From assembly GCA_902785905.1 (NCBI GenBank), contig CADAAM010000036.1:1-53983 (forward strand): a stretch of 53,983 nucleotides of DNA, written 5' to 3'. How positions within the stretch are numbered: the first letter of the stretch is position 1; every line of letters starts with the position of its first letter. Under the pieces are notes generated by a model. That model was not told where the DNA came from and did not search any database. It saw nothing but the letters and a program-made list of their open reading frames with translations. This stretch comes from Oscillospiraceae bacterium. Its GTDB lineage: Bacteria > Bacillota > Clostridia > Oscillospirales > Oscillospiraceae. The translations under genes were made by a program, and so were the position numbers. Positions 5,642 through 33,830 of the stretch are shown here, in pieces.

Positions 5642-5798
5642 GGCTCCCCTGAAAGGGGAGCATAGCGACGCGCGAGAAACGTGCGATGATCAAAGCTCTG
5701 CTGTCATGGCCAATCTCTCGTGAGGCCATGACTGAGGGGTCTGTCCGTACCGCGGTAAACCCCTCCGCCCTTCGGGCACCTCCCCTTTCAGGGGAGGC
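5642..5798. repeat. Structured repeat family C, copy 1 (long form)
   Basis: Bounded by GGCTCCCCTGAAAGGGGAGC and CCTCCCCTTTCAGGGGAGG hairpins, with the family marks ACTGAGGGGT and ACCCCTCCGCCC inside. It shares a further ~85-base interior (CATAGCGACGCGCGAGAAAC, ATCAAAGCTCTGCTGTCA, AGGCCATGACTGAGGGG) with the copy at 8927-9094, which is inverted relative to it. The two copies bracket dnaD and the U32 gene. Confidence 0.85.
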
Positions 5799-5799
5799 A

Positions 5800-6693
5800 T
5801 TATATATTGTCCAGCGCTTTGATCAGTTTTCCCAAATCGCGCGTTTCCGTTTTCCCGGCGCTCTTTACGCCGGTGCGGCGGCTGTCCTTGTCGCGCACGT
5901 CGGCGGGCGTGTGGATGCCCTTCTCGTGCCAGCTCTTGAGGATGCCGTTCATGTAACCCAACTTGACGCCGCCGGTGTTGGCGACGGTCTTCTCACAGGC
6001 AAGCTCGATCAGCTCCTCGTCGAAGCCCATGTCGAGCCACGCCGTCAGAAACTTGGTCTCGGGCCCGCTCAAGGCCCGGCCCGTGATCCCGAGCAGACGC
6101 GCCATGCGGCTGAGCTCGTCCCGCCTGCGGGAGCTCGCGGCGATGTACTCTTCCGCCTGCTCGATCGTCAGGATCTCACGGTTTGCCCAGACGTAGCCCT
6201 CCTTTTCGATCTGACGCATGGAGGGGGGATTGCCGGCGGGGTAGAGGCTGACGCAGTAATTGAGCAGCATCATCAGCACCTCCGGCGGCAGGGCGAGGTA
6301 GTCGTAGAGGCCGAAGAGCTTTTTGAGGTCCCCGGTGGAGAGCAGGCGTCCCAATACGCGCTGGGCCTCCGTGATGATGGCGGCGAAGCGCGGGTCCTCC
6401 CTGCTCCTTGCGGCGATGTCTTTTGCCGTGTACTCCGGCGACTCATCCGCCGGGGCGGGGGGAGGCGGCTCAGGCTTCGGCGGGACGATCACCGGCGCGT
6501 CCGAAAGCTCGAGCCGGGAGAGCTTTTCGGAGGCGGCCTCGATCTCCCGGAGCGTGCGGCAGAGGGCGCGGGCTGCGTCCTCGGGGTCGCCGTCAGGATT
6601 TTTAAGGCGGTAGAGCCACAGCAGGGCCACGTCGCCGTCGTGCGCCGCGATCAGTCGGTCGAGCGCGGCGGGGGAGATCAAATTGTCCTGCAT
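5800..6693 (-). CDS. DnaD-domain primosome protein
   Basis: DnaD-type proteins remodel DNA and help deliver helicase during initiation and restart. The protein is 297 residues from the ATG at 6693, chosen because GAGGAGGTGA sits 5 bases before it; the Met eight codons upstream lacks such a site. A Pro-rich linker (PPKPEPPPPAP) joins an N-terminal domain to a tandem DnaD-like C-terminal region. That region ends with YMNGILKSWHEKG, the YxxxIxxxW motif that binds single-stranded DNA in Bacillus DnaD and phage relatives. The helicase loader follows. Expression probably starts from the promoter at 6740-6768, divergent from the U32 gene. Confidence 0.85.
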   Translation of the reverse strand: MQDNLISPAALDRLIAAHDGDVALLWLYRLKNPDGDPEDAARALCRTLREIEAASEKLSRLELSDAPVIVPPKPEPPPPAPADESPEYTAKDIAARSREDPRFAAIITEAQRVLGRLLSTGDLKKLFGLYDYLALPPEVLMMLLNYCVSLYPAGNPPSMRQIEKEGYVWANREILTIEQAEEYIAASSRRRDELSRMARLLGITGRALSGPETKFLTAWLDMGFDEELIELACEKTVANTGGVKLGYMNGILKSWHEKGIHTPADVRDKDSRRTGVKSAGKTETRDLGKLIKALDNI

Positions 6694-6739
6694 GTGGGTC
6701 ACCTCCTCATAATTCACGCATTGTTCACGTTAGAGCCTT

Positions 6740-6768
6740 ATTATATCACGACTTCCCCCTTGCCGCAA
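6740..6768 (-). promoter_or_regulatory. Sigma-A-type promoter for dnaD
   Basis: On the minus strand, TTGCGG and TATAAT are 17 bases apart, about 45 bases before the dnaD start. Its -35 overlaps the -35 of the divergent U32 promoter, so the two may compete for RNA polymerase. Confidence 0.6.
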
Positions 6769-6789
6769 GACTTGACAATGTGCTATAAT
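6760..6789 (+). promoter_or_regulatory. Sigma-A-type promoter (extended -10) for the U32 gene
   Basis: TTGCCG (6760-6765), an 18-base spacer and TGCTATAAT, an extended -10 whose core is at 6784-6789. It lies about 50 bases before the U32 start. Confidence 0.6.
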
Positions 6790-6838
6790 TACTCTGTATT
6801 TTTATGTTCAATGTTTACAGAGGAGCATCAAGAGAGAC

Positions 6839-8920
6839 ATGTTGGAATTATTATCGCCCGCCGGTTCTCCCGAGGCTGTGATCGCCGCGGTGCAGAACGG
6901 CGCGGACGCTGTCTATATGGGTCTTGGCAACTTCAACGCGCGGCGCGGCGCCAAGAATTTCACCGATGAGGAGTTTGAGCGCGCGGTGCGCTATTGCCGC
7001 ATCCGCGGCTGCAAGGTCTACGTCACGCTCAACACCCTGGTCAATGACCGCGAGGTCGAAGCCGCGCTTCAGACAGCCCGGCTCGTCTCCGAGGTCGGGG
7101 CCGACGGCATCATCATCCAGGATCTGGGCCTCATCTCGGCCATCCGCCAGTATCTGCCTGACATTCCCCTGCACGCGAGCACCCAGATGTCGATACACAA
7201 TCTCGCGGGCGTGGAGGCGGCGGCGGAGCTCGGCCTGACGCGGGCGGTGCTGGCACGTGAGCTGAATCTCGACCAGATCCGCTATATCACACAGAACGCC
7301 CCTATCGAGACGGAGATTTTTGTACACGGAGCGCTGTGCTTCTGCCACTCGGGCCAGTGCTATATGTCGGCCCTGATCGGCCAGCGCAGCGGCAACCGGG
7401 GCATGTGCGCCCAGCCCTGCCGCCTGCAGTACTCTCTCGGCGGACGCATGGACGACCACCCGCTCTCTCTCAAGGACAATTGCCTGATCGACAGGCTGGA
7501 GGAGATCGAGGACGCGGGCGTGTCCTGCATCAAGATCGAAGGACGCATGAAACGGCCCGAGTACACGGCCATCGTCACCCGCATCTACGCCAACGCCCTC
7601 AAGGAGCACCGCCAGCCCACACCCGAGGAGATGCAGGATCTGGAGCGGGCCTTCTCCCGCCAGGGCTTTACACAGGGTTACTTCAACGGCGATCAGGAGG
7701 ACATGTTCGGCGTGCGCGGCGAGAGCGATCCCGACGTCGGGCAGCTCTTCGCCCAGGCCCGCAAGGGCTATTCCGACGGTGAGCGTCGGCGCGTGCCCGT
7801 CCACTTCTACACCGTGGCAGAGAGCAAGCAGCCCATACGCGCCATCGCCTTTGACGACGAGGGCCACAAGGCCGCGGCCTCCGGGCGCGTGCCGGAGAAG
7901 GCGCGCGGCCAGGGCTTGAGCGCCGGCTACCTCACCGAACAGATGTTCAAGACCGGCGGCACGCCCTACAACGTGGTGGAAAACCGCGCCCAGACCGATC
8001 CGGGCCTCTTCCTGCCCGCCGCCGCGATCAACGAACTGCGCCGCAGTCTCATTGCCGAGCTCAGCGAGCAGCGCGCCCGGCCGCCGAAGCGCCGCGTGGG
8101 GACGATCCCCTCCAAACCGAAGGGCACGCAGCCGAGCGATCCCGCGCTGATCTTCCAGGTTCTGAACGGCGAGCAGCTCACGCCCGAGCTTGCGGCTCTC
8201 AAGCCAAAATATCTCTACGTGCCCATGACGGTGATGAGCGAATATTTTGACTTGCTTGAACCCTTTGAGGAGCGCGGGACGATCCCGGTGGTCGTGCTGC
8301 CGCGCGTCATCACCGACGACGAAGAGAACATCGTGCGGGAGACGTTGGAAAAGCTCTTTGATTACGGCATCAACGAGGCGCTGGTCGGAAACCTCGGCCA
8401 CGCGATGCTGGCCAAGTCCGTCGGCATGCAGGTGCGCGGCGACTTTGGCCTCAATGTCTTTAATTCCCTCACGATGGAGATGATCAGGCAGGCGGGCTTT
8501 CTCTCCGCCACGGCGTCCTTTGAGCTGCGCATCGCGCAGATCAGGGATCTGTCCAAAACCATCGACACGGAGATGATCGTCTACGGCCGCCTCCCGCTCA
8601 TGGTGTCCGATCAGTGTGTGATCCGCCACTCCTCCGGCCGCTGCACCTGCTCCACCCCGGCCCAGATGGCCGACCGCATGGGCGCGGTGTTCCCGGTGGT
8701 CAAGGAGTTCGGCTGCCGCAACGTGATCTACAACGCCCACAAGCTCTACCTCGCCGACAAGTCCGAGGATCTGAACGGCGTGGGACTCTGGGGCCTGCGT
8801 ATGCTCTTCACCACCGAGACTCCCCGCGAGGCCGTCGAGGTCGCGCGCGTCTACCTCGGACAGTCCGATTACCAGCCGAACGTGCTGACGCGCGGGCTGT
8901 ACTACAGAGGGGTTGAGTGA
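6839..8920 (+). CDS. U32 family peptidase / RlhA-like protein with C-terminal DUF3656 region
   Basis: U32 proteins include bacterial collagenase-like proteins and the RNA hydroxylation proteins RlhA, TrhP and UbiU/V, several of which carry an iron-sulfur cluster. The 693-residue protein has a TIM-barrel N-terminal half (LLSPAGSPEA, GADAVYMG, HASTQMSIHN) and the U32 signature around residues 160-190, with cysteines in GALCFCHSGQCYMS and GMCAQPCR. The long C-terminal part has further cysteines (SDQCVIR, GRCTCST, FGCRNV). The length and cysteine pattern resemble E. coli RlhA (23S rRNA C2501 hydroxylation), so an RNA-modification role is at least as likely as proteolysis. It is followed by a family C repeat and maf. 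Confidence 0.85.
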   Translation: MLELLSPAGSPEAVIAAVQNGADAVYMGLGNFNARRGAKNFTDEEFERAVRYCRIRGCKVYVTLNTLVNDREVEAALQTARLVSEVGADGIIIQDLGLISAIRQYLPDIPLHASTQMSIHNLAGVEAAAELGLTRAVLARELNLDQIRYITQNAPIETEIFVHGALCFCHSGQCYMSALIGQRSGNRGMCAQPCRLQYSLGGRMDDHPLSLKDNCLIDRLEEIEDAGVSCIKIEGRMKRPEYTAIVTRIYANALKEHRQPTPEEMQDLERAFSRQGFTQGYFNGDQEDMFGVRGESDPDVGQLFAQARKGYSDGERRRVPVHFYTVAESKQPIRAIAFDDEGHKAAASGRVPEKARGQGLSAGYLTEQMFKTGGTPYNVVENRAQTDPGLFLPAAAINELRRSLIAELSEQRARPPKRRVGTIPSKPKGTQPSDPALIFQVLNGEQLTPELAALKPKYLYVPMTVMSEYFDLLEPFEERGTIPVVVLPRVITDDEENIVRETLEKLFDYGINEALVGNLGHAMLAKSVGMQVRGDFGLNVFNSLTMEMIRQAGFLSATASFELRIAQIRDLSKTIDTEMIVYGRLPLMVSDQCVIRHSSGRCTCSTPAQMADRMGAVFPVVKEFGCRNVIYNAHKLYLADKSEDLNGVGLWGLRMLFTTETPREAVEVARVYLGQSDYQPNVLTRGLYYRGVE

Positions 8921-8926
8921 GGCTAT

Positions 8927-9094
8927 GCCTCCCCTGAAAGGGGGAGGTGCCCCAGTTCGCAGACTGGGGCGGAGGGGTTTCCCCATGACGGACAGACCCC
9001 TCAGTCATGGCCTCACGGGAGATCGGCCCTGACAGCAGAGCTTTGATCGCCGCACGTTTCTCGCGCGTCGCTATGTCCCCTTTCAGGGGAGCCA
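8927..9094. repeat. Structured repeat family C, copy 2 (long form, inverted)
   Basis: Reverse-complement counterpart of the element at 5642-5798, with the same terminal hairpins and the same ~85-base interior with few differences. Its third hairpin differs (CCCCAGTTCGCAGACTGGGG here, GCCCTTCGGGC there) but is self-complementary in both. Confidence 0.85.
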
Positions 9095-9115
9095 TAATGG
9101 AATGGAGATTTTGCC

Positions 9116-9688
9116 ATGTCTATCATACTTGCCTCCGCCTCGCCGAGACGGAAGGAGCTTTTAAATATGCTCGGCGTACAGGATCTGAAAATTGTCCCCG
9201 CCGTCGGAGAGGAGAAGGCCGCTGAGGGACTTGCGCCCGACGCGCTGGTGATCACGCTCGCCTCCCGCAAGGCGCGGGAGGTTGCCGCCCAATCTGCGCC
9301 CGGAGACGTCGTGATCGCCGCCGACACCATCGTGTGGCACCGGGGCAGGGTCTTCGGCAAACCCCACAGCGAGGACGAGGCCGCCCGTATGCTGCGGGAG
9401 CTCTCCGGGGACCGGCACGAGGTCTACACCGGTGTCGCCGTCATCAAAGACGGACGGGAGCTTTTGGAGGCGGAGCACAGCTTTGTCCGCTTCCGCATGC
9501 TGAGTGACGCGGAGATCGCGGCCTATATCGCCACCGGCGAGCCCATGGACAAGGCCGGGGCCTACGGCATCCAGGGCCGGGCCTCCCTGTTCGTTGAAGG
9601 GATCGACGGCGACTTCTTTAATGTGATGGGTCTGCCGCTGTGCAGACTCGGACTCATGCTGAAAGAGCTGGGGGTTGAGCTTCTTTGA
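9116..9688 (+). CDS. maf: Maf family nucleotide pyrophosphatase
   Basis: Maf proteins hydrolyse non-canonical or modified nucleoside triphosphates (dTTP/UTP or m7GTP classes) and were first linked to septum formation in Bacillus. The 190-residue protein begins ILASASPRRKELL, the family signature loop, and has AADTIVWHRGRVFGKP (catalytic Asp region), SGDRHEVYTG and DKAGAYGIQG near the C terminus. Length is standard. The TGA stop overlaps the TTG start of mreC by four bases (TTGA), so maf, mreC and mreD are likely cotranscribed, as in many Firmicutes. Confidence 0.92.
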   Translation: MSIILASASPRRKELLNMLGVQDLKIVPAVGEEKAAEGLAPDALVITLASRKAREVAAQSAPGDVVIAADTIVWHRGRVFGKPHSEDEAARMLRELSGDRHEVYTGVAVIKDGRELLEAEHSFVRFRMLSDAEIAAYIATGEPMDKAGAYGIQGRASLFVEGIDGDFFNVMGLPLCRLGLMLKELGVELL

Positions 9689-10297
9689 AGGAATATCTGC
9701 GGAAAAACGGCATACGGGTCGGCATGAACGTGTCCGGTATTCTCAAGGCCCCGATCCAGAAGGTGCTGAGCTCCGCCGTCAACTGGTTTGACAGTATGTA
9801 CGGCTACTTATATGAATATGACTCACTGATGGCGGAGAACGAATCTCTGCGCTCACAGCTGGCCGACGCACAGAAATCCGCCCGCGACGGCATCGAGGCC
9901 AGCGAGGAGAACAACCGCCTGCGCAAGCTCCTGGATCTGCGCGAGAAGCACACCGACTATGTGATGGAGTCCTGCAAGGTGGTGCTCTGGTCCAGCTCCA
10001 ACTGGTCCAGCGCCTTCACGATCTCCAAGGGCTCCACCAGCGGGATCGAGCTGGGCGACGCCGTCATCACGGAATACGGCGCGGTCGTCGGTCAGATCAC
10101 GGAGCTGGGCAGCACCTGGGCCACGGTCTCGACCGTCATCGACGTGGACATGTCCGTCGGCGCTTTCGTCGGCGCGACGGGCCGCCGTGCAGACCGAGGC
10201 CGGCGGCCAGATCGAATACGGCATTGTAGAGCCGCAGGCCAACCTCGATTCGCTGGTGCAGGTCTTCGTTATAAAGAGCTTTACTGTTGTGGAGTGA
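9685..10297 (+). pseudogene. mreC: Rod-shape protein MreC, frameshifted by an internal deletion
   Basis: MreC is a membrane-anchored periplasmic scaffold of the elongation machinery. The reading frame starts at TTG (9685) and shows the coiled coil (AENESLRSQLADAQ to NNRLRKLLDL) and the first beta domain (ISKGSTSGIELGDAVITEYGAVVG, SVGAFVG). At about 10184 the frame is lost. In another frame the expected C terminus follows (TEAGGQIEYGIVEP, LVQVFVIKSF) and stops at 10297, just before mreD. About 40-50 family residues are missing between the two parts. The N-terminal membrane helix that should follow KNGIRV is also absent, suggesting a second, in-frame deletion near 9720. Without repair the readable product has a nonsense tail ending at 10317. 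Confidence 0.8.
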
Positions 10298-10300
10298 GCC

Positions 10301-10798
10301 GTGGGAGAATTTTTTGAAAAAATCGACCTGAACAAGGTTCTGCGCTATCTTGTGTTCATGTTTCTGTGTCTGATGGCGCAGAACATGGTGTTCGGCCACA
10401 TACGCCCATTCGGCGTCCGGCCCATGCTGCTGCCCGCGGTGGCGGCGGCGGTCGGCATGTTTGAGGGGGCAACCTGGGGGCCGCTGTTCAGCCTGCTGAT
10501 GGGCTACTTTGCGGACATGAGCTTTGTGGAGCACCGGGTGTTCTTCCTCCTCCTCCTGCCCGCGCTGAGCCTGTTCTCGGCCTTCATGTCCCAGTTTTTC
10601 ATCAACCGCCGTTTCTTTGCCTTCATGGGCGTGGCGTTTTTAGCGGAGCTGATTACGGCGCTCATGCAGATGCTCAAGACCCTTGCGGGAGACGCGTGGA
10701 GCACCGACATGCTGGTCGTCGTCGCGCTCCAGACCGCGCTCTCCATGCCCCCCGCCGCGCTGGCATACTTTTTGCCGGAACGCTGGAGCAGGGAATAA
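10301..10798 (+). CDS. mreD: Rod-shape-determining membrane protein MreD
   Basis: Partner of MreC in the elongasome. The 165-residue protein is almost entirely hydrophobic, with about five predicted membrane segments (for example YLVFMFLCLMAQNMVF and LLLLPALSLFSAF), the usual size and layout for MreD. It starts with GTG four bases after the proper mreC stop, and GGAG from the mreC tail serves as ribosome binding site, so translation is probably coupled. PBP2 follows after a repeat. Confidence 0.88.
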   Translation: MGEFFEKIDLNKVLRYLVFMFLCLMAQNMVFGHIRPFGVRPMLLPAVAAAVGMFEGATWGPLFSLLMGYFADMSFVEHRVFFLLLLPALSLFSAFMSQFFINRRFFAFMGVAFLAELITALMQMLKTLAGDAWSTDMLVVVALQTALSMPPAALAYFLPERWSRE

Positions 10799-10808
10799 GT
10801 CTCCGCCG

Positions 10809-10976
10809 CTTGCCTCCCCCGGCCGCTTGCGGCGATTGGGGGAGGGGGACCGCTTCAGCGGTGGAAGGGGGTTCCCCCGCTCTCTTTGGGCGCTCAAAAC
10901 AATGAGCCTTGACTCCCTCAGTCACGACGCTCGCGTGGGATCGCGCCGCGACAGCTCCCTCAGAGAGGGAGCCTTA
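10809..10976. repeat. Structured repeat family C, divergent copy 3
   Basis: Begins GCCTCCCCCGGCCGCTTGCG and ends CTCCCTCAGAGAGGGAGCC. The inner marks are variants of the family (GACTCCCTCAGTCACGACGC, ACCGCTTCAGCGGT). It separates mreD from PBP2 and ends about 10 bases before the PBP2 ribosome binding site. Confidence 0.65.
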
Positions 10977-10993
10977 TTAAGAAAGGATATCCT

Positions 10994-13108: not shown

Positions 13109-13244
13109 GTTTGGCGCGTGAAGAGCGGCGCTGCGGCGTCCCTTTCGCGGGCAATGAAATACGGCCACGAAGCGGCACTCTGAATTCAAACTCCAAACCG
13201 CCGAAAATCTCTCACAAAATTTTCTCAGTATTTCAAAATTTCTA

Positions 13245-13273
13245 TTGCACTTTTCACAAAAGGCGTTTATAAT
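13245..13273 (+). promoter_or_regulatory. Sigma-A-type promoter for mgsA
   Basis: TTGCAC (13245-13250), a 17-base spacer and TATAAT (13268-13273), in a locally AT-rich stretch after PBP2. A start point near 13280 leaves a short leader and argues for the ATG at 13312 rather than 13288. Confidence 0.75.
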
Positions 13274-13311
13274 AAAGCGATTTTAGAGTGTATGAGAAAT
13301 GGAGTATACGG

Positions 13312-13716: not shown

Positions 13717-13734
13717 GGGGTTTTATACAGGAAC

Positions 13735-13797: not shown

Positions 13798-13802
13798 CAT
13801 AA

Positions 13803-13913
13803 GCCTCCCCTGAAAGGAGGAGGCACCCGAAGGGCGGAGGGGTTTCCGCGAGACGAACAGGCCCCTCAGTCACCGGTGTGCACACCGGTGGCTGCTCCCC
13901 TTACATGGGAGCC
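13803..13913. repeat. Structured repeat family C, copy 4
   Basis: GCCTCCCCTGAAAGGAGGAGGC end hairpin, GGGCGGAGGGGT and GCCCCTCAGT marks, a perfect TCACCGGTGTGCACACCGGTGA inner hairpin, and CTCCCCTTACATGGGAGCC at the far end. It lies just before the hisS ribosome binding site. Confidence 0.8.
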
Positions 13914-13934
13914 GATAAGGAAAGGATTGTAATT

Positions 13935-15284
<1,350 letters not shown>

Positions 15285-15290
<6 letters not shown>

Positions 15291-15372
15291 AGAGTGGAGA
15301 GTGAAGTTAAGGTGTCGCTTCGCGACAATTTAAAATCATCCGTAAAGCGGATACCACAACTCCACACTCCGC
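15285..15372. repeat. Structured repeat family A, copy 2
   Basis: GAGTGAAGAGTGGAGAGTG plus AAGTTAAGGTG, hairpin GTCGCTTCGCGAC, hairpin ATCCGTAAAGCGGAT, then ACCACAACTCCACACTCC. The outer arms are complementary. It begins within the hisS stop region and lies between hisS and aspS. Confidence 0.85.
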
Positions 15373-15418
15373 ACTTATGCTGTAAAACGTCAAATCATAT
15401 AGAAGAAGGTTGGTATAC

Positions 15419-17203: not shown

Positions 17204-17209
17204 ATTCTT

Positions 17210-17336
17210 GGCTCCCCCTTTGGGGGAGCTGTCATCGCCGCTTGCGGCGATGACTGAGAGGGTGTACGTTGACGCACAACCCTCTCCGCCCCAGTGTGCG
17301 CACTGAGGCACCTCCCCCAGAGGGGGGGGAGGCAAG
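17210..17336. repeat. Structured repeat family C, copy 5
   Basis: GGCTCCCCCTTTGGGGGAGC, inner hairpin GTCATCGCCGCTTGCGGCGATGAC, the variant marks ACTGAGAGGGT and ACCCTCTCCGCCCC, hairpin CAGTGTGCGCACTG and CACCTCCCCC...GGGGGAGGC. It follows the aspS stop. Confidence 0.85.
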
Positions 17337-17407: not shown

Positions 17408-17471
17408 AGGAATTTGCTGCTTTTCCCGTCTCGCCGAGGAGAGTAGCCTGTCTCTGCGAAAAAATACAATC

Positions 17472-17523
17472 GTCGCGAAGCGACATCGTAACTCCACACT
17501 TTGCTCTTCACACTCCACACTCT
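17472..17523. repeat. Structured repeat family A, half copy 3
   Basis: Hairpin GTCGCGAAGCGAC followed by GTAACTCCACACTTTGC and CTCTTCACACTCCACACTC, the right half of a family A element. The left arm is reduced to a weak AGGAGAGTAG remnant. It ends just before the AAAGGAGG site of yifB. Confidence 0.65.
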
Positions 17524-17540
17524 CAAAGGAGGGTTCCCCC

Positions 17541-19052
17541 ATGTTTTCATCCGTCATCAGTCTCGGCGTGAGCGGGATCGGCGGTTATCTCGTGTCGGTG
17601 GAGGTCAACATCTCCAACGGAATGCCGCATTTTGACATCGTCGGTCTGCCGGACACAGCGGTCAAGGAGGCCCGGGAGCGGGTCTATGCCGCCGTGAAGA
17701 ACAACGGCTTCCGCTTCACCGCGAGCAGGCTCACGGTGAACCTCGCCCCGGCAGACAAGAAGAAGACCGGCACGGTCTACGATCTGCCGATTCTGGTAGG
17801 CATTCTCGCCGCCTCCGGGGACCTCCAAAAGCCCAAGCCCGACACGGCCTTCATCGGCGAGCTCAGCCTGACCGGCGAGCTGCGGCCGGTAAGAGGCGCG
17901 CTGCCCATGGCTCTCGCCGCCGAAAGAGAGGGTTTACGTCGTCTCTTCGTTCCGGCCGAGAACGCCGCCGAGGCCTCTTTCGCCGAGGGCCTGGAGGTCT
18001 ACGGCGTGAAGGACGTGCGCCAGCTTGTGCGTCATCTGCGCGGCGAGGAAACGATAACACCGACACCCGCGCCAAATCTTAAGACAGACGCCCCGGCTCT
18101 GCTGGACTTTGCCGATGTGAAGGGCCAGGAGAACGTCAAGCGCGCCTTTGAGATCGCGGCGGCGGGCGGCCATAATATATTAATCGTAGGCCCTCCGGGC
18201 GCGGGCAAATCCATGCTCGCAAAAAGACTCCCCGGTATTCTGCCCGACATGAGCCGGGAGGAGATCATCGAAGCCACCGAAATCTGGTCGGTCGCGGGGC
18301 TTACGAGTGACGAGCACCCCATTGTCGCGGCGCGGCCCTTCCGCTCCCCGCACCATACGGTGTCGGCGGCGGGCCTTGCGGGCGGCGGCGCGGTGCCGAG
18401 ACCGGGGGAGATCAGCCTTGCCCACAACGGCGTGCTGTTTCTGGACGAGCTGCCGGAGTTTCGCTCCGACGCGCTGGAAGTTCTGCGCCAGCCCCTGGAG
18501 GACGGGATCGTGACGGTCTCGCGCGTGGCGGGATCGGTGAGCTTTCCGAGCCGTTTCATGCTGGTGTGCGCGATGAACCCCTGCAAGTGCGGCTGGTACG
18601 GCCACCCCTCCGGGCGCTGCAAGTGCTCCGAGCAGGAGGTGCACCGCTATCACGCGCGCATCTCCGGACCGCTGCTGGACCGCATTGACCTGATCGTGGA
18701 GGTTCCGGCGCTGGACTATGAGGAGCTGCGGCGCAGGGCCCCGGCAGAGAGCTCGGCACTTGTGCGCGAGCGGGTCAACACCGCGAGAGAGCGCCAACGC
18801 GAGCGCTTTTCCGACCGTGCCATGTGCAACGCCCGCATGCAGGCGAAGGAGCTGCGCGCCTGCTGCGCCCTGGACGCCGAGTGCGACGCGCTGATGAAGG
18901 CGGCCTTTGAGACGATGAACCTCTCGGCGAGAAGCTATGACCGCATTCTCCGCGTGGCGCGCAGCATTGCCGACCTTGAGGGCGCCGAGACGATCCGCCC
19001 GGAGCACCTCGCCGAGGCGATACAATACAGAACTTACGAGCTGAGAAGATAA
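17541..19052 (+). CDS. comM: YifB/ComM-type Mg-chelatase-like AAA+ ATPase
   Basis: ComM homologues are helicases promoting branch migration in natural transformation and recombination; in Firmicutes the role is less well tested. The 503-residue protein has an N-terminal Lon/ChlI-like domain (VEVNISNGMPHFDIVGLPD), an AAA+ core with Walker A GPPGAGKSMLAKRLP (about 215-229) and Walker B VLFLDELPEF, zinc-like cysteines CNPCKCGWYG and GRCKCS after the core, and a C-terminal chelatase domain ending SARSYDRILRVARSIADLEG. GGAGG precedes the ATG. Intact. Confidence 0.9.
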   Translation: MFSSVISLGVSGIGGYLVSVEVNISNGMPHFDIVGLPDTAVKEARERVYAAVKNNGFRFTASRLTVNLAPADKKKTGTVYDLPILVGILAASGDLQKPKPDTAFIGELSLTGELRPVRGALPMALAAEREGLRRLFVPAENAAEASFAEGLEVYGVKDVRQLVRHLRGEETITPTPAPNLKTDAPALLDFADVKGQENVKRAFEIAAAGGHNILIVGPPGAGKSMLAKRLPGILPDMSREEIIEATEIWSVAGLTSDEHPIVAARPFRSPHHTVSAAGLAGGGAVPRPGEISLAHNGVLFLDELPEFRSDALEVLRQPLEDGIVTVSRVAGSVSFPSRFMLVCAMNPCKCGWYGHPSGRCKCSEQEVHRYHARISGPLLDRIDLIVEVPALDYEELRRRAPAESSALVRERVNTARERQRERFSDRAMCNARMQAKELRACCALDAECDALMKAAFETMNLSARSYDRILRVARSIADLEGAETIRPEHLAEAIQYRTYELRR

Positions 19053-19117
19053 CCCCTCTCAATCACCGGTGTGCGCACCGGTGACTGCTCCCCCCCAAAG
19101 AAGGGGGCCAAGTCTTG
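19053..19117. repeat. Structured repeat family C, half copy 6
   Basis: AACCCCTCTCAATCACCGGTGTGCGCACCGGTGA (split here by its marks ACCCCTCTCA and TCACCGGTG) and then CTCCCCCC...GGGGGCC: one half of a family C element, truncated at the yifB stop. Confidence 0.65.
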
Positions 19118-19991: not shown

Positions 19992-20110
19992 AAGAGTGCG
20001 AAGAGTGAAGAGTGGAGAGTAAAGTTATGGTATCCCCGTCGGGGATAATTAAAAATACAGTCGCGCAGCGACACCTTGATTCTACTCTCCACTCTCCTAA
20101 CTCCACACTC
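19992..20110. repeat. Structured repeat family A, copy 4
   Basis: Left arm GAGTGAAGAGTGGAGAGTA and AAGTTATGGT, hairpins ATCCCCGTCGGGGAT and GTCGCGCAGCGAC, right arm ACACCTTGATTCTACTCTCC plus CACTCTCC. The two inner hairpins are in the opposite order to copy 2. Confidence 0.8.
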
Positions 20111-21324: not shown

Positions 21325-21470
21325 AAATCCGTTTTTGGGGCAGCTTTGCCGCCGCAAAAACACCCTGAGGCGAGCTGTGCGAGCCCTCGCGCCGACCAAC
21401 CGCAGCGTCTCACGCAAGCGGAGGGCGATAAGCGCGAGCAACATCGATTCAAAATCGAATTTTGAATCGA
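21325..21470 (+). repeat. Structured repeat family B, copy 2
   Basis: Hairpin GTTTTTGGGGC...GCCGCAAAAAC, core CCTGAGGCGAGCTGTGCGAG and CTCGCGCCGACCAA, then GATAAGCGCGAG, and a terminal hairpin TCGATTCAAAA/TTTTGAATCGA. It sits within the nusG-rplK gap; the rplK ribosome binding site follows it by about 10 bases. Confidence 0.75.
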
Positions 21471-24385: not shown

Positions 24386-24479
24386 AGCGGAGTGTTGAGA
24401 GTGGAGAGTGGAGTTATGATGTCGCTTTGCGGCGATTCTAATCATCCCCGAAGGGGATATATTAACTTCACTCTTCACA
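24386..24479. repeat. Structured repeat family A, copy 5
   Basis: GAGTGTTGAGAGTGGAGAGTG and GAGTTATGAT, hairpins GTCGCTTTGCGGCGAT and ATCCCCGAAGGGGAT, then TTAACTTCACTCTTCACACT. It directly abuts the pyrR stop codon at 24480. Confidence 0.8.
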
Positions 24480-25028
<549 letters not shown>

Positions 25029-25030
25029 TC

Positions 25031-25200: not shown

Positions 25201-25452
25201 CGGATGGACTATAGAATTTGCACAGAAGCGCAAATCCAGTTTTGTGCAGCATTTCCGTTTTTCTTGACGAAGCCTCGCTGAGGTGCTACCCTGTAGGAGT
25301 GGAACTAATGAGACTCTCTGTGCGTCATAAAGAATGGAAGACGGTGCATAATCCGGGTTTGATCTCTCAGATTCCGGTTGCGCGCACCGGCGACAGCCTC
25401 CATATTTATTTATCTCAGAAGCGGACACGATAACTCTACACTCCACACTTTT
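25201..25452. other. Non-coding stretch of degenerate repeat sequence before the lipoprotein gene
   Basis: About 250 bases without a convincing gene. TTTGCACAGAAGCGCAAA and GTTTTGTGCAGCATTTCC recall hairpin arms, and AGGTGCTACCCTGTAGG and GACTCTCTGTGCGTCATAAAG look like repeat debris. 25428-25452 is the right arm of a family A element (ACACGATAACTCTACACTCC). The lower local GC and short open frames suggest decay. Confidence 0.45.
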
Positions 25453-26028: not shown

Positions 26029-26047
26029 CAAGGATACTTTAAAACCG

Positions 26048-26080
26048 AAAGAACCGCCCGTTTCGGGCGGTTCTTTCTTT
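26048..26080. terminator. Bidirectional terminator between convergent genes
   Basis: AAAGAACCGCCCG and its perfect complement around a TTT loop, with a T-rich tail on the plus side and CGGTTTT on the minus side. It serves the lipoprotein gene and the PpiC gene. Confidence 0.85.
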
Positions 26081-26090
26081 GTATGGGGAA

Positions 26091-27314: not shown

Positions 27315-27416
27315 AAGTAAATCTCCTTGGGTTTGAAAATTTCAACAGCGCTATGATAGCACCAATTTATGAACGAAACAACACTTTTTATAGAGCTCCC
27401 TACATGAAGGAGGCAA

Positions 27417-30400
27417 TTACGCGCTCCAGTCCCGTACAAAGCGCCGCGCCTCGTCGATGACGCGGGCTTTGTTCTGAATCTTTACGCTGAGACAGGGCTT
27501 GGACCCGGCCTCCACGCGGAGGCGTCCCTTGTATTCAGGCGTTGCGTAGAGGGCGGAGACCTTCTCCATATTAAAGTCTGCAACGGTGTAGCGCAGGCAG
27601 CCCGCCTTCTGGGAGATATCGGTGATCCCGGCCTTGCCCGCCTCGCCCCTGAGCAGGGCGACGTGGATGAGGGCGTTGACCCCCGGCGGGGTGTCGCCGA
27701 AGCGGTCGATGAGCTCGTCGGTCAGATCGTCCGCCTCCTCCTCGGTGCGAATGGCGGCGATGCGGCGGTAGATATCCATACGCTGTTCGGCCGAGGCGAT
27801 ATAGCGTTCGGGGATGTTGGCGGCGACGGCGAGGTCGGCGGAGCAGTCCGCGCGCTGCGGGACCTCGATGCCCCGGGCTTCGAGCACAGCCTCGCTCAGG
27901 AGCTTCATATACATGTCATAGCCCACGTCCACCATGTGGCCGGACTGCTCCGCGCCGAGCAGGCTGCCCGCGCCGCGGATCTCCAAATCGCGCATGGCGA
28001 TCTTCATGCCGGAGCCGAAGGCAGCAAAGTCGCGGATGGCGTTGAGGCGCTTTTCGGCTACCTCCGTCAGCACCTTGTCACGGCGGAAGGTGAGGTAGGC
28101 GCTGGCACGCCTGGTCGAGCGGCCGACGCGGCCGCGAATCTGGTGGAGCTGGGCAAGGCCCAGCTTGTCGGCGTCCTCAATGATGAGCGTATTGACGTTC
28201 GGAATGTCGATGCCGGTCTCGATGATGGTGGTGCAGACCAGAACCTGGGTCTGGCCCGTGACCACCGAGTCCATCACCTGGGCCAGCATGTTTTTGTCCA
28301 TCTGCCCATGGGCTACGGCGACGGTGGCGTCCTCCAGCAGATCGCGCAGCTTGATCGCCGTGCGCTCGATGTCCTCGATGCGGTTGTGCAGGTAGTAGAC
28401 CTGACCGCCGCGCTGGAGCTCGCGCCGGATCGCGTCTGCGATCACGCCCCAGTCATGCTCAAGCACGAAGGTCTGGACCGGCAGGCGGTCCTCCGGCGGC
28501 TCCTCGATGTTCGACATGTCGCGGATGCCGGACATGGCCATATTGAGTGTGCGGGGGATCGGCGTCGCGGTCAGGGTCAGCACATCCACGCCCTTGGACA
28601 GCTCCTTGATATGCTCCTTGTGCGTCACGCCGAAGCGCTGCTCCTCATCCACGACCAGCAGGCCAAGGTTTTTGAACTTTACGTCCTTGCCCAAAAGCCG
28701 GTGTGTACCGATCACAAGGTCGAGCTTGCCGGATTCGAGGTCACGCAGAGTCTTCGTTGCCTGCGCGCCCGCGCCGAGGCGGCTCAAAACCCCAATCTCC
28801 ACCGGAAAGCCGAAGAATCTTTGCAGGGCGGTCTGGTAGTGCTGCTGGGCCAGGACCGTGGTGGGCACCAGGATCGCAGCCTGCTTGCCGTCCAGCACGC
28901 ATTTCATAATGGCGCGCAGGGCGACCTCGGTCTTGCCGAAGCCCACGTCTCCGCACAGAAGGCGGTCCATGGGCACGGAGGACTCCATGTCGGCCTTGAT
29001 TTCGGCCACGCAGCGGAGCTGATCGTCCGTCTCGGTATAGCCGAAGTTTTCCTCAAACTCGCGCTGCCACTCGCTGTCAGGCGAGAAGGCATGGCCGGGC
29101 AGGCGCTGGCGCTGGGCGTAGAGCTTGATCAAGCGCTCGGCCATGTCTTTGGCGGAGGCTTTTGCGCGGCTGCGGGTCTTGGCCCAGTCCGCACCGCCCA
29201 TCTTTGAAAGGCGCACGGGCTTTTCCTCGCCCGCGCCGGTGTACTTCGTCACCATGTCGAGCTGAGTCGCCGGGACATAGAGCGTGTCGCCGCCCGCGTA
29301 GTCGAGCTTGATGTAGTCCTTGTCGAAGCCGTCCACCTGCATGCGCACGATGCCCGCGAACTTGCCGATGCCGTGGTTTTCGTGCACCACAAAATCCCCA
29401 GGTGAGAGGTCGGCGCAGGAGTTGATGCGCGCTCTGTTTGGCGGCAGCTTCTTGGAAGCTTTCGCCTGCTTGCCCCTTGCGCGCACAAGCTGCGAATCGG
29501 TCAGCACCGCGAGTTTGAGGCCCGGATACTCATAGCCCGCCGAGACCGCGCCCACGCCGATGCGGCACTGTCCGGGCCCGGGCAGCTTCTTGAGCACCGG
29601 GTCGATCAGGGCGTCGACGCCTTTGTCTTTAAAGAAGTCCTGCAGGGTCCTGGCGCGCCTCTCGTCCCCGGCGAGGACGACGACGCGGTAGCTCTGCTTG
29701 AGGTAGGCGGCCACATCCTCGCATGCCGCCTGGGCGGAGCCGCCGTAGCTCGGGAGCTGCTTGGCGGCAAGGCTCGTGAGCGTGCGCGGCGGGACGGGAG
29801 AGCGGCCCACGGTAAAGGCGTCCGCCATGTAGAGGGGGAAGTCCGGCAGGGCCTTGAACAGCTTTTCAGCCGAGAGCCGAAAGCCCTCCGCCGTCATGGC
29901 GAGCATGGCGCGCTTCTGAAGCTCCGTCACATCCTCCGCAAGCTGCTTTTCAAAGGCCTTTCCCCGCTCGGAGCAGCGCCCCGGCTGGTCGAGGAAGACC
30001 AGCGCGTTTTCGGGGATGTAATCAAAACCGCTCGCCTCCTGGTAGAGGATGGGCAGATAGCGGTCCGCGTCGGAGAGAATAACGCCGTTGCCCAGTTTCT
30101 CCGCATCGGCACGCATGTTGGACGCGAGCTGCTGGGCGTTTTCGCCGCGGCGGCGTTTGGCGTACGTGTCGGCAAAGCGCGTGATCTCCCGCGCCACCGC
30201 CCCGGCCCCGCCGGGTGCGAGACTCGGCAGCGCCTCCACTGCCGGCAGGATGCGGCAGCGGTCGAGGCTGTCCCCGCGGCGCTGGCTCTGCACATCGAAG
30301 CGAGCCATGGAGTCGATGTCATCGCCCCAGTACTCCACGCGGACAGGCTCAAGCTCGCCGGGGGAGAAGAAGTCCAGGATACCGCCGCGCCGCGCATACT

Positions 30401-30914
30401 GGCCGGGGCCCTCCACCTGATCGCAGCGGACATATCCGCAGCGGATCAGAGCGTCCTCAACCTCCTCTGGCGGGTGGTTCCCGCCGTCGGTGATCTCATA
30501 GGCCGCGCGGAGCAAAAGCTCCGGCGGGAAGGTCCGCTGCATGAGGCCGGAGACGGAGGCGACGGTGATCTCACTCTCGCCCTTTGCGAGCCTGTAGAGC
30601 GCCGCGATACGCTTCTGCTCGGCGGGGCGGGACACGGCCTCTGCGGAGTAGAAGACAAAGTCGCGCATACCGAGGACGGTGATCTCCCTGCCCAACATGG
30701 CGGCGAGGTCGCGCCCAAAGCTCTCGGCGGCGGTGTCGTCCGGGCAGATCACGAAGAGCGGGGTCTGTATCTGATTGTACAGCGCCGCTGCGAGGTTTGC
30801 CCGGTGCACCGGCGAGAGCCCGGAAATGAGTGCGGGAAGTCCTCCGCTCTCGATCAAAGAGGGGAGGGCGGCGGCTTCCTTGTGGGTGAGTATTTGATTG
30901 ATGAGTTGTTCCAT
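27417..30914 (-). CDS. mfd: Transcription-repair coupling factor Mfd
   Basis: Displaces RNA polymerase stalled at DNA damage and recruits UvrA. The 1165-residue protein is complete: a UvrB-like N-terminal module, the RNA polymerase interaction domain (SPGDFVVHENHGIGKF, YAGGDTLYVP), a RecG-like SF2 motor with Walker A GDVGFGKTEVAL, box VVDEEQRFG, TATPIPRTL and QIRGRVGRS, and the C-terminal TRCF domain (RFGDTPPGVNAL). ATG at 30914. Size and order match the family. Neighbour genes give no operon link. Confidence 0.95.
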   Translation of the reverse strand: MEQLINQILTHKEAAALPSLIESGGLPALISGLSPVHRANLAAALYNQIQTPLFVICPDDTAAESFGRDLAAMLGREITVLGMRDFVFYSAEAVSRPAEQKRIAALYRLAKGESEITVASVSGLMQRTFPPELLLRAAYEITDGGNHPPEEVEDALIRCGYVRCDQVEGPGQYARRGGILDFFSPGELEPVRVEYWGDDIDSMARFDVQSQRRGDSLDRCRILPAVEALPSLAPGGAGAVAREITRFADTYAKRRRGENAQQLASNMRADAEKLGNGVILSDADRYLPILYQEASGFDYIPENALVFLDQPGRCSERGKAFEKQLAEDVTELQKRAMLAMTAEGFRLSAEKLFKALPDFPLYMADAFTVGRSPVPPRTLTSLAAKQLPSYGGSAQAACEDVAAYLKQSYRVVVLAGDERRARTLQDFFKDKGVDALIDPVLKKLPGPGQCRIGVGAVSAGYEYPGLKLAVLTDSQLVRARGKQAKASKKLPPNRARINSCADLSPGDFVVHENHGIGKFAGIVRMQVDGFDKDYIKLDYAGGDTLYVPATQLDMVTKYTGAGEEKPVRLSKMGGADWAKTRSRAKASAKDMAERLIKLYAQRQRLPGHAFSPDSEWQREFEENFGYTETDDQLRCVAEIKADMESSVPMDRLLCGDVGFGKTEVALRAIMKCVLDGKQAAILVPTTVLAQQHYQTALQRFFGFPVEIGVLSRLGAGAQATKTLRDLESGKLDLVIGTHRLLGKDVKFKNLGLLVVDEEQRFGVTHKEHIKELSKGVDVLTLTATPIPRTLNMAMSGIRDMSNIEEPPEDRLPVQTFVLEHDWGVIADAIRRELQRGGQVYYLHNRIEDIERTAIKLRDLLEDATVAVAHGQMDKNMLAQVMDSVVTGQTQVLVCTTIIETGIDIPNVNTLIIEDADKLGLAQLHQIRGRVGRSTRRASAYLTFRRDKVLTEVAEKRLNAIRDFAAFGSGMKIAMRDLEIRGAGSLLGAEQSGHMVDVGYDMYMKLLSEAVLEARGIEVPQRADCSADLAVAANIPERYIASAEQRMDIYRRIAAIRTEEEADDLTDELIDRFGDTPPGVNALIHVALLRGEAGKAGITDISQKAGCLRYTVADFNMEKVSALYATPEYKGRLRVEAGSKPCLSVKIQNKARVIDEARRFVRDWSA

Positions 30915-30957
30915 AGTTTACCTTATGCGAATGAAGTTAGGATTATGCGGGGAATAG

Positions 30958-31142
30958 AGTGGAGTGTGGATTGCCACGCCAGTGACGCCGGTCACCGGCG
31001 TACAATGACAGACTTTAAGATTGCCGCAGCGTTGGTAAGGTTCGCGAAAATGTAGCCCTCTCGTCATTCCAATTCACCATTCTGTCAATGGAGTACGGAT
31101 TGCCACACCAGTGACGTCGGTCACTGGTTCGCAATGACATAG
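30958..31142. repeat. Repeat family D, two copies (30969-31012 and 31098-31141)
   Basis: Each 44-base copy reads GATTGCCAC, GCCAGTGACG or ACCAGTGACG, a GGTCACCGGC or GGTCACTGGT stem partner, and ends CAATGACA. Both follow GGAGT. A degenerate third copy may lie at 31018-31051. The 313-base gap between mfd and the GNAT gene holds nothing else I can identify. Confidence 0.65.
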
Positions 31143-31227
31143 AAGGTTCGTTTTTTGGTCTTAGGCTGCAAATAGTCTTAGTCTGTCATTTGAATAAGAT
31201 TTGAACATTCGTGCGGTAATCCTTCTC

Positions 31228-31809
31228 CTATGGCTCCATCTCCACTTTCTTAATCTCCATCATCCCCCAGAGGGAATTTGAGGACAGGAAGCGCGAATAG
31301 AAGTCCGGGAGAATACGGTGAGCGATAGGGGCGATGTCGGCGCGGCCCTGTATGGGCTTGACCAGGAGGTTGGCTTTGACGCCGCGGATGGTATAGTCGC
31401 TTTTGATTTCTTCGTAGCCAAAGCGATTGAAGAACTTGCGCAGCTTCCGCAGGCGGTCGGGGTCCGGGTCGGGAAATTCGGTGAGCTCCGCGATGATCCC
31501 CTGCGTGTCGGCATAGTGTTTGTTCAGCTCCCGCATGAGCTGGATGCCGAGACCGCGGCCTCGAAACCAGGGCATGACAGCCATGTACTTCAGATCGACA
31601 TAGCCGTAGAGGTTTTTTGTCAGCATAAGAGCATAGCCCGCGTCCATGAGACTGTCCGTGTCGCGCAGAACCAAAAGCTCAATGCTGCCGTTCAGCATCC
31701 CCTTGTGGATGGTGAGGCGGGACAGCAACTCTTCGCTGTCAAAATCGGTCTCCATCAGAGGATAGTAACGCTCCAGATCGCGGTGGCCGACTTTAATTAA
31801 ACTCAACAT
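31228..31809 (-). CDS. GNAT-family N-acetyltransferase domain protein
   Basis: A 193-residue protein with an acetyl-CoA-binding motif A at about residues 75-95: VDLKYMAVMPWFRGRGLGIQ contains the strand, the Arg/Gly-rich RGRGLG pyrophosphate loop and the following helix LMRELNKHY. FNRFGYEEI later is the usual GNAT beta-6/7 area. The substrate is unknown, and the C-terminal ~60 residues (ILPDFYSRFL, MMEIKKVEMEP) match nothing I can name. It precedes the ABC exporter on the same strand, but a family C repeat lies between, so a functional link is doubtful. Confidence 0.72.
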   Translation of the reverse strand: MLSLIKVGHRDLERYYPLMETDFDSEELLSRLTIHKGMLNGSIELLVLRDTDSLMDAGYALMLTKNLYGYVDLKYMAVMPWFRGRGLGIQLMRELNKHYADTQGIIAELTEFPDPDPDRLRKLRKFFNRFGYEEIKSDYTIRGVKANLLVKPIQGRADIAPIAHRILPDFYSRFLSSNSLWGMMEIKKVEMEP

Positions 31810-31828
31810 AGTGTTGCCTCCTTATCTT

Positions 31829-31958
31829 GGCTCCCCTGAAAGGGGAGCTGTCGCCGACGTTCACGGCGGCGACTGAGAGGGCTCCGATCGTTGTGCACCC
31901 TCTCCGTCATCCGTCTTGCGTGAGACGACGGATGCCACCTCCCCCAAAAGGGGAGGCA
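31829..31958. repeat. Structured repeat family C, copy 7
   Basis: GGCTCCCCTGAAAGGGGAGC, inner hairpin GTCGCCGACGTTCACGGCGGCGAC, ACTGAGAGGGC/ACCCTCTCCGTC marks, third hairpin CATCCGTC...GACGGATG, and CACCTCCCCCAAAAGGGGAGGC. Confidence 0.82.
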
Positions 31959-31965
31959 AGTTATG

Positions 31966-33708
31966 TTACAGCTTCTGCGCCGCGCAGAGCTTTGCGTATA
32001 CGCCGTCTTTTGCGATCAGCTCGTCGTGGGTGCCGTATTCGATGATATGCTCGTTTTCCACCACGGCGATGTGATCCGCGTTTCTCACGGTGGAGAGGCG
32101 GTGGGCAATGATGATGCCGGTGCGGCCCCGGCTCAGCTCGTCGAGACTCGCCTGGATGCGCTGTTCGGTCACGGTGTCGAGGGCGGAGGTGGCCTCGTCC
32201 AGAATCAGAACCCTCGGATTTTTGAGAAATACCCGCGCAATCGACAGGCGCTGCTTCTGCCCGCCGGAGAGCATGATGCCGCGCTCGCCGATGTAGGAGT
32301 CATAGCCGTCCGGCATCTGCATGATCTCGTCATGGATCTGGGCGCGGACGGCGGCCTCCACGATCTCCGCGTCGGTGGCGTCCGGGCGGCCGTAGCGGAT
32401 GTTCTCGCGGATGGTACCCGCGAACATGAAGACCTCCTGCTGGATGACGCCGATCTGACGGCGGAGACTCGCCTGCGTCACCGCACGCACATCCTCGCCG
32501 TCCACCAGCACCGCGCCGCCGGTCACATCGTAAAAGCGGGGGAGAAGACTCACCAGCGTGGTCTTGCCGCCGCCGGAGGGGCCGACCAGCGCAAGGGTCC
32601 GGCCCGGCTCGATGCGGAGATTGATGTGTTCCAGAACCGGCACACCGTTTGAATAGGCAAAGCTCACGTCCCGGTACTCCACCTCGCCGCGCACGTCTCC
32701 CAGCTCCTTCGCATCCGGCGCGTCGGTAACGGCGGGCTCGGTGTTCATCACTTCCAGAAAGCGCGTGAAGCCCGCCATGCCCTGCATGTAGATTTCACTG
32801 AACTGTGTCAGGCGGCGGATGGGATTGATGAAGACGGAGATATACAGAGAGAAGGTGATGAGATCCACATAGTCCATGCTGCCGCCCATGATGAGCAGGC
32901 CGCCGACCGCGATGACCACCACCTGCGCAATGCCGGAGGAAAACTCCATGCCGCTCATAAAGCCGGCCATGGCTCGGTAGTACTCGACCTTTGCGCCGCG
33001 GAAGAGAGCGTTGGCCGCGTCAAATTTCTCGCTCTCCTTCTCCTCGTTGGCAAAGGCCTTGGCCGTGCGGATGCCGGAGATCGACGACTCGATGGCGGCG
33101 TAGATCTCGCCGGTCTTGCGCTTGACCTCGAGGTTGGCCTTTTTCATGCGCACGCGCTGGGCGATGGTAAACCACAGCGTAAGGCCCAGCACCGCGGCCA
33201 GGGCCAGGGCGAGGCGCCAGTTGATCGTGAGCATCACGATCATGGAGCCGAAGAAGGTCAGGCCGCAGATCAGCAGGTTTTCCGGTCCGTGGTGGGCAAG
33301 CTCCGTCACGTCGAAGAGGTCGGAGGTGATGTGGCTCATCAGGACGCCGGTGCGGTGGTGATCGTAATAAGAGAAGCTCAGGCTCTGCATGTGCTCGAAA
33401 ATATCGCGCCGCATGTCGGATTCGGTCAGCACGCCGAGGCGGTGGCCGTAGACCGTGATTGTGTACATGAGCGCCGCCTTGAGCACATAGGCCGCCGCCA
33501 TCAGTGCCATGACCGAAAAGAACGCGCCGTAGAGCTTATCTGGCAGGAGGCGGTACATGGACAGGCGCGAGACATAGGGGAAGATCAGGTCGATCAAAGC
33601 GACCGCGACCGAGCAGCCCATATCCAGCGCAAAAAGCCCCCGATGCCGCGCGAGGTACCGCGCGAAAATCTTCAGGGGCGAGGCTTTGTAGTTGATGTTA
33701 TTTGTCAT
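31966..33708 (-). CDS. ABC transporter, fused permease and ATPase (exporter type)
   Basis: A half-transporter that likely works as a homodimer to export lipids, peptides or drugs. The 580-residue protein has six membrane helices with an exporter-type domain (about residues 20-310, including RRDIFEHMQSLSFSYYDHH) and an ATPase domain with Walker A GPSGGGKTT (about 365), signature LSGGQKQR, Walker B VLILDEATSALD and the switch His in IIAHRLSTV. I chose the ATG at 33708, GGGTGA upstream; a TTG four codons earlier is also in frame. The substrate is not predictable, and there is no second half-transporter beside it. Confidence 0.88.
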   Translation of the reverse strand: MTNNINYKASPLKIFARYLARHRGLFALDMGCSVAVALIDLIFPYVSRLSMYRLLPDKLYGAFFSVMALMAAAYVLKAALMYTITVYGHRLGVLTESDMRRDIFEHMQSLSFSYYDHHRTGVLMSHITSDLFDVTELAHHGPENLLICGLTFFGSMIVMLTINWRLALALAAVLGLTLWFTIAQRVRMKKANLEVKRKTGEIYAAIESSISGIRTAKAFANEEKESEKFDAANALFRGAKVEYYRAMAGFMSGMEFSSGIAQVVVIAVGGLLIMGGSMDYVDLITFSLYISVFINPIRRLTQFSEIYMQGMAGFTRFLEVMNTEPAVTDAPDAKELGDVRGEVEYRDVSFAYSNGVPVLEHINLRIEPGRTLALVGPSGGGKTTLVSLLPRFYDVTGGAVLVDGEDVRAVTQASLRRQIGVIQQEVFMFAGTIRENIRYGRPDATDAEIVEAAVRAQIHDEIMQMPDGYDSYIGERGIMLSGGQKQRLSIARVFLKNPRVLILDEATSALDTVTEQRIQASLDELSRGRTGIIIAHRLSTVRNADHIAVVENEHIIEYGTHDELIAKDGVYAKLCAAQKL

Positions 33709-33730
33709 GGGATCACCCAAATCAAAATAT

Positions 33731-33830
33731 GGCTCCCCTGAAAGGGGAGCTGTCAGCCGTCAGGCTGACTGAGGGGTTAACCCCTCCGCCCCAGTGTGCG
33801 CACTGGAGCACCTCCCCTTTCAGTGGAGGC
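33731..33830. repeat. Structured repeat family C, copy 8 (shortest complete form)
   Basis: GGCTCCCCTGAAAGGGGAGC, inner hairpin GTCAGCCGTCAGGCTGAC, TGAGGGGTTAACCCCTCCGC, hairpin CAGTGTGCGCACTG, CACCTCCCCTTTCAGTGGAGGC. It is a good type example of the family at exactly 100 bases. Confidence 0.88.

Follow-up and report, generated by a model that had tools for sequence, protein, structure and literature searches.

A family of paired half-elements with variable, self-complementary hairpins in an Oscillospiraceae contig, and its probable mobility

The window analysed here is the whole 53,983-nucleotide (nt) contig CADAAM010000036.1 of an Oscillospiraceae bacterium (contig C36 of a 2.73 Mb genome in 191 contigs, 85% complete; assembly GCA_902785905.1), and it carries an interspersed family of hairpin-rich repeats lying beside genes such as hisS, aspS and rnhA. 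A covariance model of the family, R1, was built from 15 copies in this genome, including those at 13800, 17207, 31826 and 33728 in the window, whose scores are therefore partly by construction. R1 matches all eight complete or partial sites listed by a first-pass annotation of the sequence, six as full copies (72–118 bits) and two weakly (24.8–24.9 bits), the latter, at 10809 and 19053, being left halves only; left and right are abbreviated L and R throughout.

5639–5801, + strand: full copy, long variant, lengthened by about 45 nt between its left end hairpin and inner hairpin (R1 72.3 bits)
8924–9096, − strand: full copy, long variant (75.1 bits)
10809–10976, − strand: left half (about 10913–10976) joined to another repeat family (from 10810); weak match (24.9 bits, E 0.001)
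13800–13916, − strand: full copy (86.1 bits)
17207–17336, + strand: full copy, C-type (CTTGGCTCCCCC ... GGGGGAGGCAAG), just after aspS (118 bits)
19053–19112, − strand: left half on its own, immediately after the stop codon of a yifB-like gene (24.8 bits over 18966–19112)
31826–31960, + strand: full copy, L end beside AAGGAGG (100.8 bits)
33728–33833, + strand: full copy, flanked by an ABC transporter gene and rnhA, and the shortest of the six full copies in the window (98.7 bits)

Copies and their anatomy

A 110-nt arm of the copy at 8924 forms an inverted repeat with the copy at 5642, at 87% complementarity. The L end of the 13800 copy (13913) lies beside AAGGAAAGGA, and the probable start codon of hisS (ATG at 13935) comes 21 nt downstream of it. 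The marks that the annotation took to be common to the family, ACTGAGGGG and CCCCTCCGCC, are present in exact form in four of the eight copies (at 5731 and 33768 on the + strand, and at 8997 and 13862 on the − strand); the copies at 17210 and 31829 differ and carry GAGAGGG / CCCTCTC in their place. No T run follows the hairpins in the printed stretches of the window copies, in agreement with the claim that these are not ordinary terminators, and the window has no match to Rfam at gathering score. The annotation had also staked the family on there being further copies in the genome, and R1 finds at least 52 places (76 rows with 52 distinct starts, many matched on both strands), which is a minimum because scoring covered 150 of the 1960 candidates. 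Exact patterns of the two ends give 35 left and 37 right ends in the same genome, and the reversed control patterns of both ends give none.

Read on the GGCTCC strand, the left part of a copy is composed of an end hairpin (GGCTCCCC..GGGGAGC), a TGTC-variable-GAC hairpin, and GAGGGG or GAGAGGG; after a spacer, the right part has the complementary arm, a second variable hairpin, and its own end hairpin, CCTCCCC..GGGGAGGC. Because the end hairpins are mutual inverted repeats, a copy can form either both of them or a single long terminal helix. These inverted repeats contain a G.G mismatch near their tips (G in 79/81 and 80/81 rows), and with this arrangement the three copies that were folded prefer the long terminal helix, closing a three-arm junction. 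The folds are very stable, with z of −7.7 to −11.6 for both strands of these three copies. There are two subtypes: one has TGAAA loops and AT-like flanks, the other CCCCC and flanks of the CTT/AAG type. Like miniature inverted-repeat transposable elements (MITEs), the copies are short, apparently non-coding, and bounded by terminal inverted repeats.

Half-elements, covariation and gene context

A full copy consists of two homologous half-elements arranged head to head, with an asymmetric mark. Each half is about 45–60 nt: TG links its end hairpin (GSCTCCCC..GGGGAGS) to a variable hairpin, after which comes the GAG(A)GG arm. The left half follows the plan CTTG-G-CTCCCC..GGGGAG-C-TG-hairpin-TGAGAGGG, and the right side, when reversed, has the same plan, CTTG-C-CTCCCC..GGGGAG-G-TG-hairpin-CGGAGAGGG, except that L and R have swapped the base pair closing the foot of their end hairpins. 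The anatomy initially proposed, with fixed ends and variable inner hairpins, thus describes real copies but overlooks their construction from two homologous halves, and also the halves that occur alone, back to back or in tandem.

Among 534 distinct halves, neighbours within 120 nt that face each other are predominantly LR (89, with 11 LL and 0 RR), as are back-to-back neighbours (LR 34, LL 9, RR 1); there are 38 tandem neighbours, 22 of them LL. Since the L-end pattern served to retrieve most of the database loci, these counts under-represent RR pairs and R halves. Lone halves are common, with 250 L and 90 R by a looser count, and 184 halves are isolated. R1 does not catch lone halves, and the regular-expression scan used for halves demands a perfect CTCC-type end hairpin, so that variants escape it (e.g. 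an R1 copy in contig L127). L and R halves have 14 hairpin cores in common, out of 227 L and 123 R, and several of these are just 8–12 nt long. Inverted pairs of palindromic units accompanied by single units, the pattern used to recognise REP/REPIN sequences, are present. The database contig L313 has an L half every 66–67 nt, and these units resemble one another but show compensatory changes; 52-nt tandem duplications of the right end are also seen. We note that at L218 2500–2735 and L309 840–1020 tandem halves have near-identical spacers and different inner hairpins, as if by cassette exchange.

Comparisons among full copies used 92 hand-picked best-strand rows without duplicates, out of 182 R1 rows (86 loci sources), with five weak places excluded (L007:2622, L012:1376, L014:1387, L073:573 and L114:1598). 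In an author-chosen subset of 56 of these, which excludes most long or divergent copies (alignment A4, made with MAFFT without structure), 26 of the 40 base pairs of the local-hairpin fold have changed at both positions, giving 259 double-change cells compared with a mean of 85 in shuffled alignments and at most 43 when the pairing is slid. The aligned rows are related copies, so the shuffles overstate significance; the slid controls preserve relatedness, and as the column pairs derive from one alignment row the unslid version is favoured over them. The inner hairpins therefore do change from copy to copy while remaining self-complementary, as the first reading of the window had it, and the lack of covariation in a larger alignment that would have counted against that reading is not seen. 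The long-helix fold fares similarly in this alignment (30 of 41 pairs, 329 cells), and covariation supports both folds without choosing between them.

If full elements were transcribed, their stems would be expected to hold more G.U than A.C combinations. In the frame of the element the G.U:A.C ratio is 52:46 in a model-fitted alignment (81 of the 92 copies) and 45:51 when the MAFFT alignment (56 of the 92) is counted over its five local stems. In the frame of the half, with the right-hand stems turned, the same MAFFT alignment gives 59:34 for stems H1, H2, H4 and H5, and 285 distinct inner hairpins give 57:18, or 27:15 when position 3 is left out, after 81 halves lacking a five-pair stem were dropped. 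A small control, the acceptor stems of 11 tRNAs, gives 4:0. A half in its own reading direction may thus have a weak strand preference, from single-stranded DNA or from RNA.

The 92 full copies lie mainly in spacers between codirectional genes (61, with 18 convergent, 10 divergent and 3 undecided), and two are flagged within a gene; in the codirectional spacers 38 are antisense and 23 sense to the genes, although the gene caller behind these counts is crude. The L end has a particular association with translation starts, which the annotation did not note. Of the 92 copies, 16 have a Shine-Dalgarno (SD) motif and then a start codon facing their outer L end (2.3 in shuffled sequences), and one has them at the R end (1.9 shuffled). 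Among distinct halves the corresponding numbers are 57/347 for outer L ends (12.7 shuffled) and 13/179 for outer R ends (5.2 shuffled), and for inner ends 3/348 (L, 4.5 shuffled) and 6/178 (R, 3.3 shuffled). The flanks counted include related ones, and part of the motif can be supplied by the AAG of CTT-type ends. A preference of the R end for stop codons is not borne out (38/92, with 36 in shuffled sequences).

Distribution and occupied and empty sites

R1 matches occur in 24 of 60 genomes of the genus and order, this one included, at 0 to 47 rows each and patchily within the genus. In a wider draw from the phylum 3 of 299 genomes match, again including this one, a low count since 11 candidates were scored per genome. 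The left-end pattern finds at least 119 stretches in a species-genome collection; for the 80 matches listed, record titles place 79 in the Clostridia or elsewhere in the Bacillota, with Faecalibacterium longum and Pseudoflavonifractor sp. MSJ-30 among the carriers, and one is Bifidobacterium stellenboschense. Counting both strands, the Pseudoflavonifractor has 22 R1 rows, B. stellenboschense 25 and F. longum 3, and the motif TGTC..GACTGAG is common to Clostridia and a Bifidobacterium. The left-end pattern also finds 50 stretches in IMG/VR; blastn of one copy against phage and plasmid collections gave no match, yet the IMG/VR contigs do carry copies, with phage genes checked in one of these, L346. 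No description of the family was found in the literature searched, including the accessible parts of PMC2864571, PMC6006769 and PMC3733652, which is not proof of absence from print; two full hairpin strings do not occur in the literature among the matches listed.

Relatives differ in the sites that are occupied. The syntenic genome G012 has the element at none of the eight window sites (judged by eye, and with no R1 match in its loci L129 or L130). In genome G022, four of the five comparable sites are without the element and the fifth has a short relative (L128:3094–3177), and there is a copy between its hisS and aspS genes (L127:13769–13915), a place taken in the window by another repeat family.

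The phage contig L346, which encodes a terminase, a portal and a major head protein, has a lone half between two perfect 14-bp copies of AATTTGAAAGGAGA in a Shine-Dalgarno region, and at the matching site the related contig L345 has a single AATTTGAAAGGAGA and no half. A second lone half, common to both contigs, lies between copies of AGCCTATAAGGAAGGTGA that are 18 letters long, or 14 after assigning AGCC to the end of the element, and repeats of 14–16 letters flank halves in L308 and L309, near other halves. Among 80 relatives of the L346 head protein there are further insertions with closely matching empty alleles (e.g. L376 against L380, or L372 against L370), with any duplication imperfect. 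More generally, phage-database contigs with related head proteins (L345, L346, L340, L305, L312 and L365–L443) have spacers rich in small palindromic repeats, which are of many kinds and vary between close relatives.

Mobility and alternative explanations

The family is probably a non-autonomous, REP/BIME-like mobile DNA element, recognised by its folded structure and moved by an enzyme acting in trans. From the order of the halves, the syntenic presence and absence, the occurrence in a phage structural operon and the compensatory change in stems, all of them observed, we infer recognition and insertion by such an enzyme. The usual full copy is one L and one R half, placed head to head and joined by pairing of their arms. 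The enzyme would recognise the folded single strand and not its letters, so that changes preserving the hairpins would be tolerated. The unit would insert between genes, in many cases just ahead of a ribosome-binding site, and selection against broken genes, perhaps with transfer by phages, would shape where copies persist. The first-pass annotation had named non-autonomous mobile elements among its possibilities, and this is supported as probable, as is its description of an interspersed family with compensatory change. If movement does depend on recognition of structure, the covariation stems from selection on DNA, and this repeat family, common in gut Clostridia and with a readable grammar, would be a warning to RNA discovery pipelines that take compensatory change as proof of RNA.

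Several observations weigh against this interpretation. The flanks of relatives are too diverged to provide exact empty sites for the window copies, and the 92 full copies have no clear adjacent target duplication (at most 2 for k≥4, with a small excess of 6, compared with 1.7, at k=3). Duplications are present at just 2–3 of the 184 isolated halves, with perfect long repeats at 2 of the 184, and a diagonal test for decayed duplications in these halves gives weak, inconsistent peaks; looser flanking repeats of at least 9 letters are found at 6 of 120 facing pairs (0.4 expected), partly in arrays and not adjoining the ends. The few duplicated flanks may be recent cases, or duplications of other origin. 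In 7 of 14 loci with inward-facing lone halves, 10 open reading frames scanned between the halves hold no transposase domain, and so gave no autonomous parent; they are host genes (NAD synthase, glycosyl transferase, RapZ-like, GGGtGRT) or have no Pfam match. The half may also be under selection at the RNA level, as the G.U bias is present in the half frame (59:34) and absent from the element frame.

The mobilising enzyme was likewise not found. A link to a REP-type (Y1) transposase, for which the annotation had suggested looking, is not supported, as Y1_Tnp (PF01797) is present in 31 of the 60 genomes, including this one (one match), and does not correlate with copy number. It has no match in the copy-rich G027 (95% complete, 47 R1 rows), nor in G036, G019 and G035 (81–85% complete) despite their many R1 rows, and 23 of 24 loci around Y1 genes are without an R1 match; the exception, L127, has one R1 copy 3.7 kb from its Y1 gene and was recovered when the check was redone with R1, the pattern scan having overlooked it. 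A REP-associated tyrosine transposase (RAYT) or IS200 enzyme is thus unsupported as the mover. The Y1 gene in L127 (G022; 9490–10245, RAYT-like, weak PF01797 match) is itself surrounded and interrupted by GTAGGGGC palindromes (five matches to the pattern in L127, two of them overlapping, chance 0.02), which are another family, and looks like a GTAG-tagged REP/RAYT pair.

REP, BIME and REPIN sequences are intergenic palindromic units that are found singly, in inverted pairs and in clusters, have many copies, and are non-autonomous. The present family is similar in all of these respects; it differs in having two hairpins per unit, asymmetric L–R pairs and no Y1 link. The GTAG/CGTC tag of REPs moved by RAYTs (PMC3733652, the accessible part of which has no mention of Clostridia, Firmicutes or Bifidobacterium) is missing beside the palindromes here, which are flanked by CTT or AT-rich sequence. 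Structured MITEs such as bcr1, ERIC, NEMIS/Correia and pneumococcal BOX/RUP are similar in size (about 100–170 bp), terminal inverted repeats, intergenic location and turnover, but no parental insertion sequence was found for this family, target duplication is rarely visible, and the ends are themselves palindromes. End hairpins serve as recognition signals in IS200/IS605 (Y1) elements; here, unlike there, the two ends are mutual inverted repeats and Y1 genes do not track the copies.

A more specific and tentative proposal is that the half is the mobile unit, read as folded single-stranded DNA and making a 14-bp duplication at Shine-Dalgarno/stop-codon junctions, such that the downstream gene would gain a fresh ribosome-binding site and survive. 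The enzyme would fall outside both the Y1 tyrosine transposases and the recognised insertion-sequence transposases, and the unit would be phage-borne between Clostridia and bifidobacteria.

It is unlikely that the half or the whole is instead a structured RNA, either a small RNA or an mRNA leader or 3' element, with covariation reflecting RNA selection. The great stability of the folds, the excess of G.U over A.C in the half frame and the adjoining of L ends to SD sites would all suit an RNA, as would a two-hairpin plan resembling Rfam whalefall-1 (RF01762, 56 nt), with its pyrimidine-rich first hairpin, CAG/TG link, second hairpin and GAGG tail. The best whalefall-1 match, in this genome, is 27.6 bits (a separate search gave E 0.003), and none of the 60 genomes reaches the gathering cut-off of 37 bits; whalefall-1 is described as certainly an RNA, and from whale fall only, in the accessible part of PMC2864571. 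Against an RNA stand the unbiased element frame compared with the tRNA acceptor stems, the occurrence in both orientations to genes, and the sites not being common to G012.

Somewhat less likely still, the copies could be passive palindromes in which template-switching between arms keeps the stems perfect, and which spread by recombination and duplication and not by transposition. The tandem neighbours of L309 and L218, the right-end duplications, and the many direct repeats flanking units within arrays are in keeping with this, but new sites in unlinked spacers, the TGTC..GACTGAG motif shared between Clostridia and Bifidobacterium, and the excess of LR over LL pairing are not readily explained by it. 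That these are ordinary terminators or mRNA-end stabilisers repeated by chance is very improbable: G+C-rich hairpins in spacers might suggest them, but the window copies are without T runs, tight codirectional spacers beside SD sites are frequent, and convergent spacers do not dominate (18/92).

The window contains other interspersed repeats. A second family, in which a short variable hairpin is enclosed by the purine-rich ends GAGTGGAGAGTGGAG / CTCCACTCTCCACACT, is found at eight places:

2677–2779, 15284–15375, 17467–17527, 20002–20109, 24391–24481, 25407–25449, 37925–38100 and 45001–45269: GAGTGGAGAGTGGAG / CTCCACTCTCCACACT family

In G022 this second family sits where the window holds the copy at 33731. 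A third repeat, about 120 nt long (AATCCGTTTTTGG..CTCGCGCC..GCGATAAGCGCGAG), is at 2233–2348, 21326–21449 and 34428–34554, with copies 74–86% alike. A fourth, palindromic family (CTTGCCTCCCC..CCGCTTGCGGCGATTGGGGGAGG..ACCGCTTCAGCGGT) lies at 10810–10873 and onward, and elsewhere in the genome (C23:49867; L089 1501–1680) it also sits inside an inner hairpin belonging to the family reported here.

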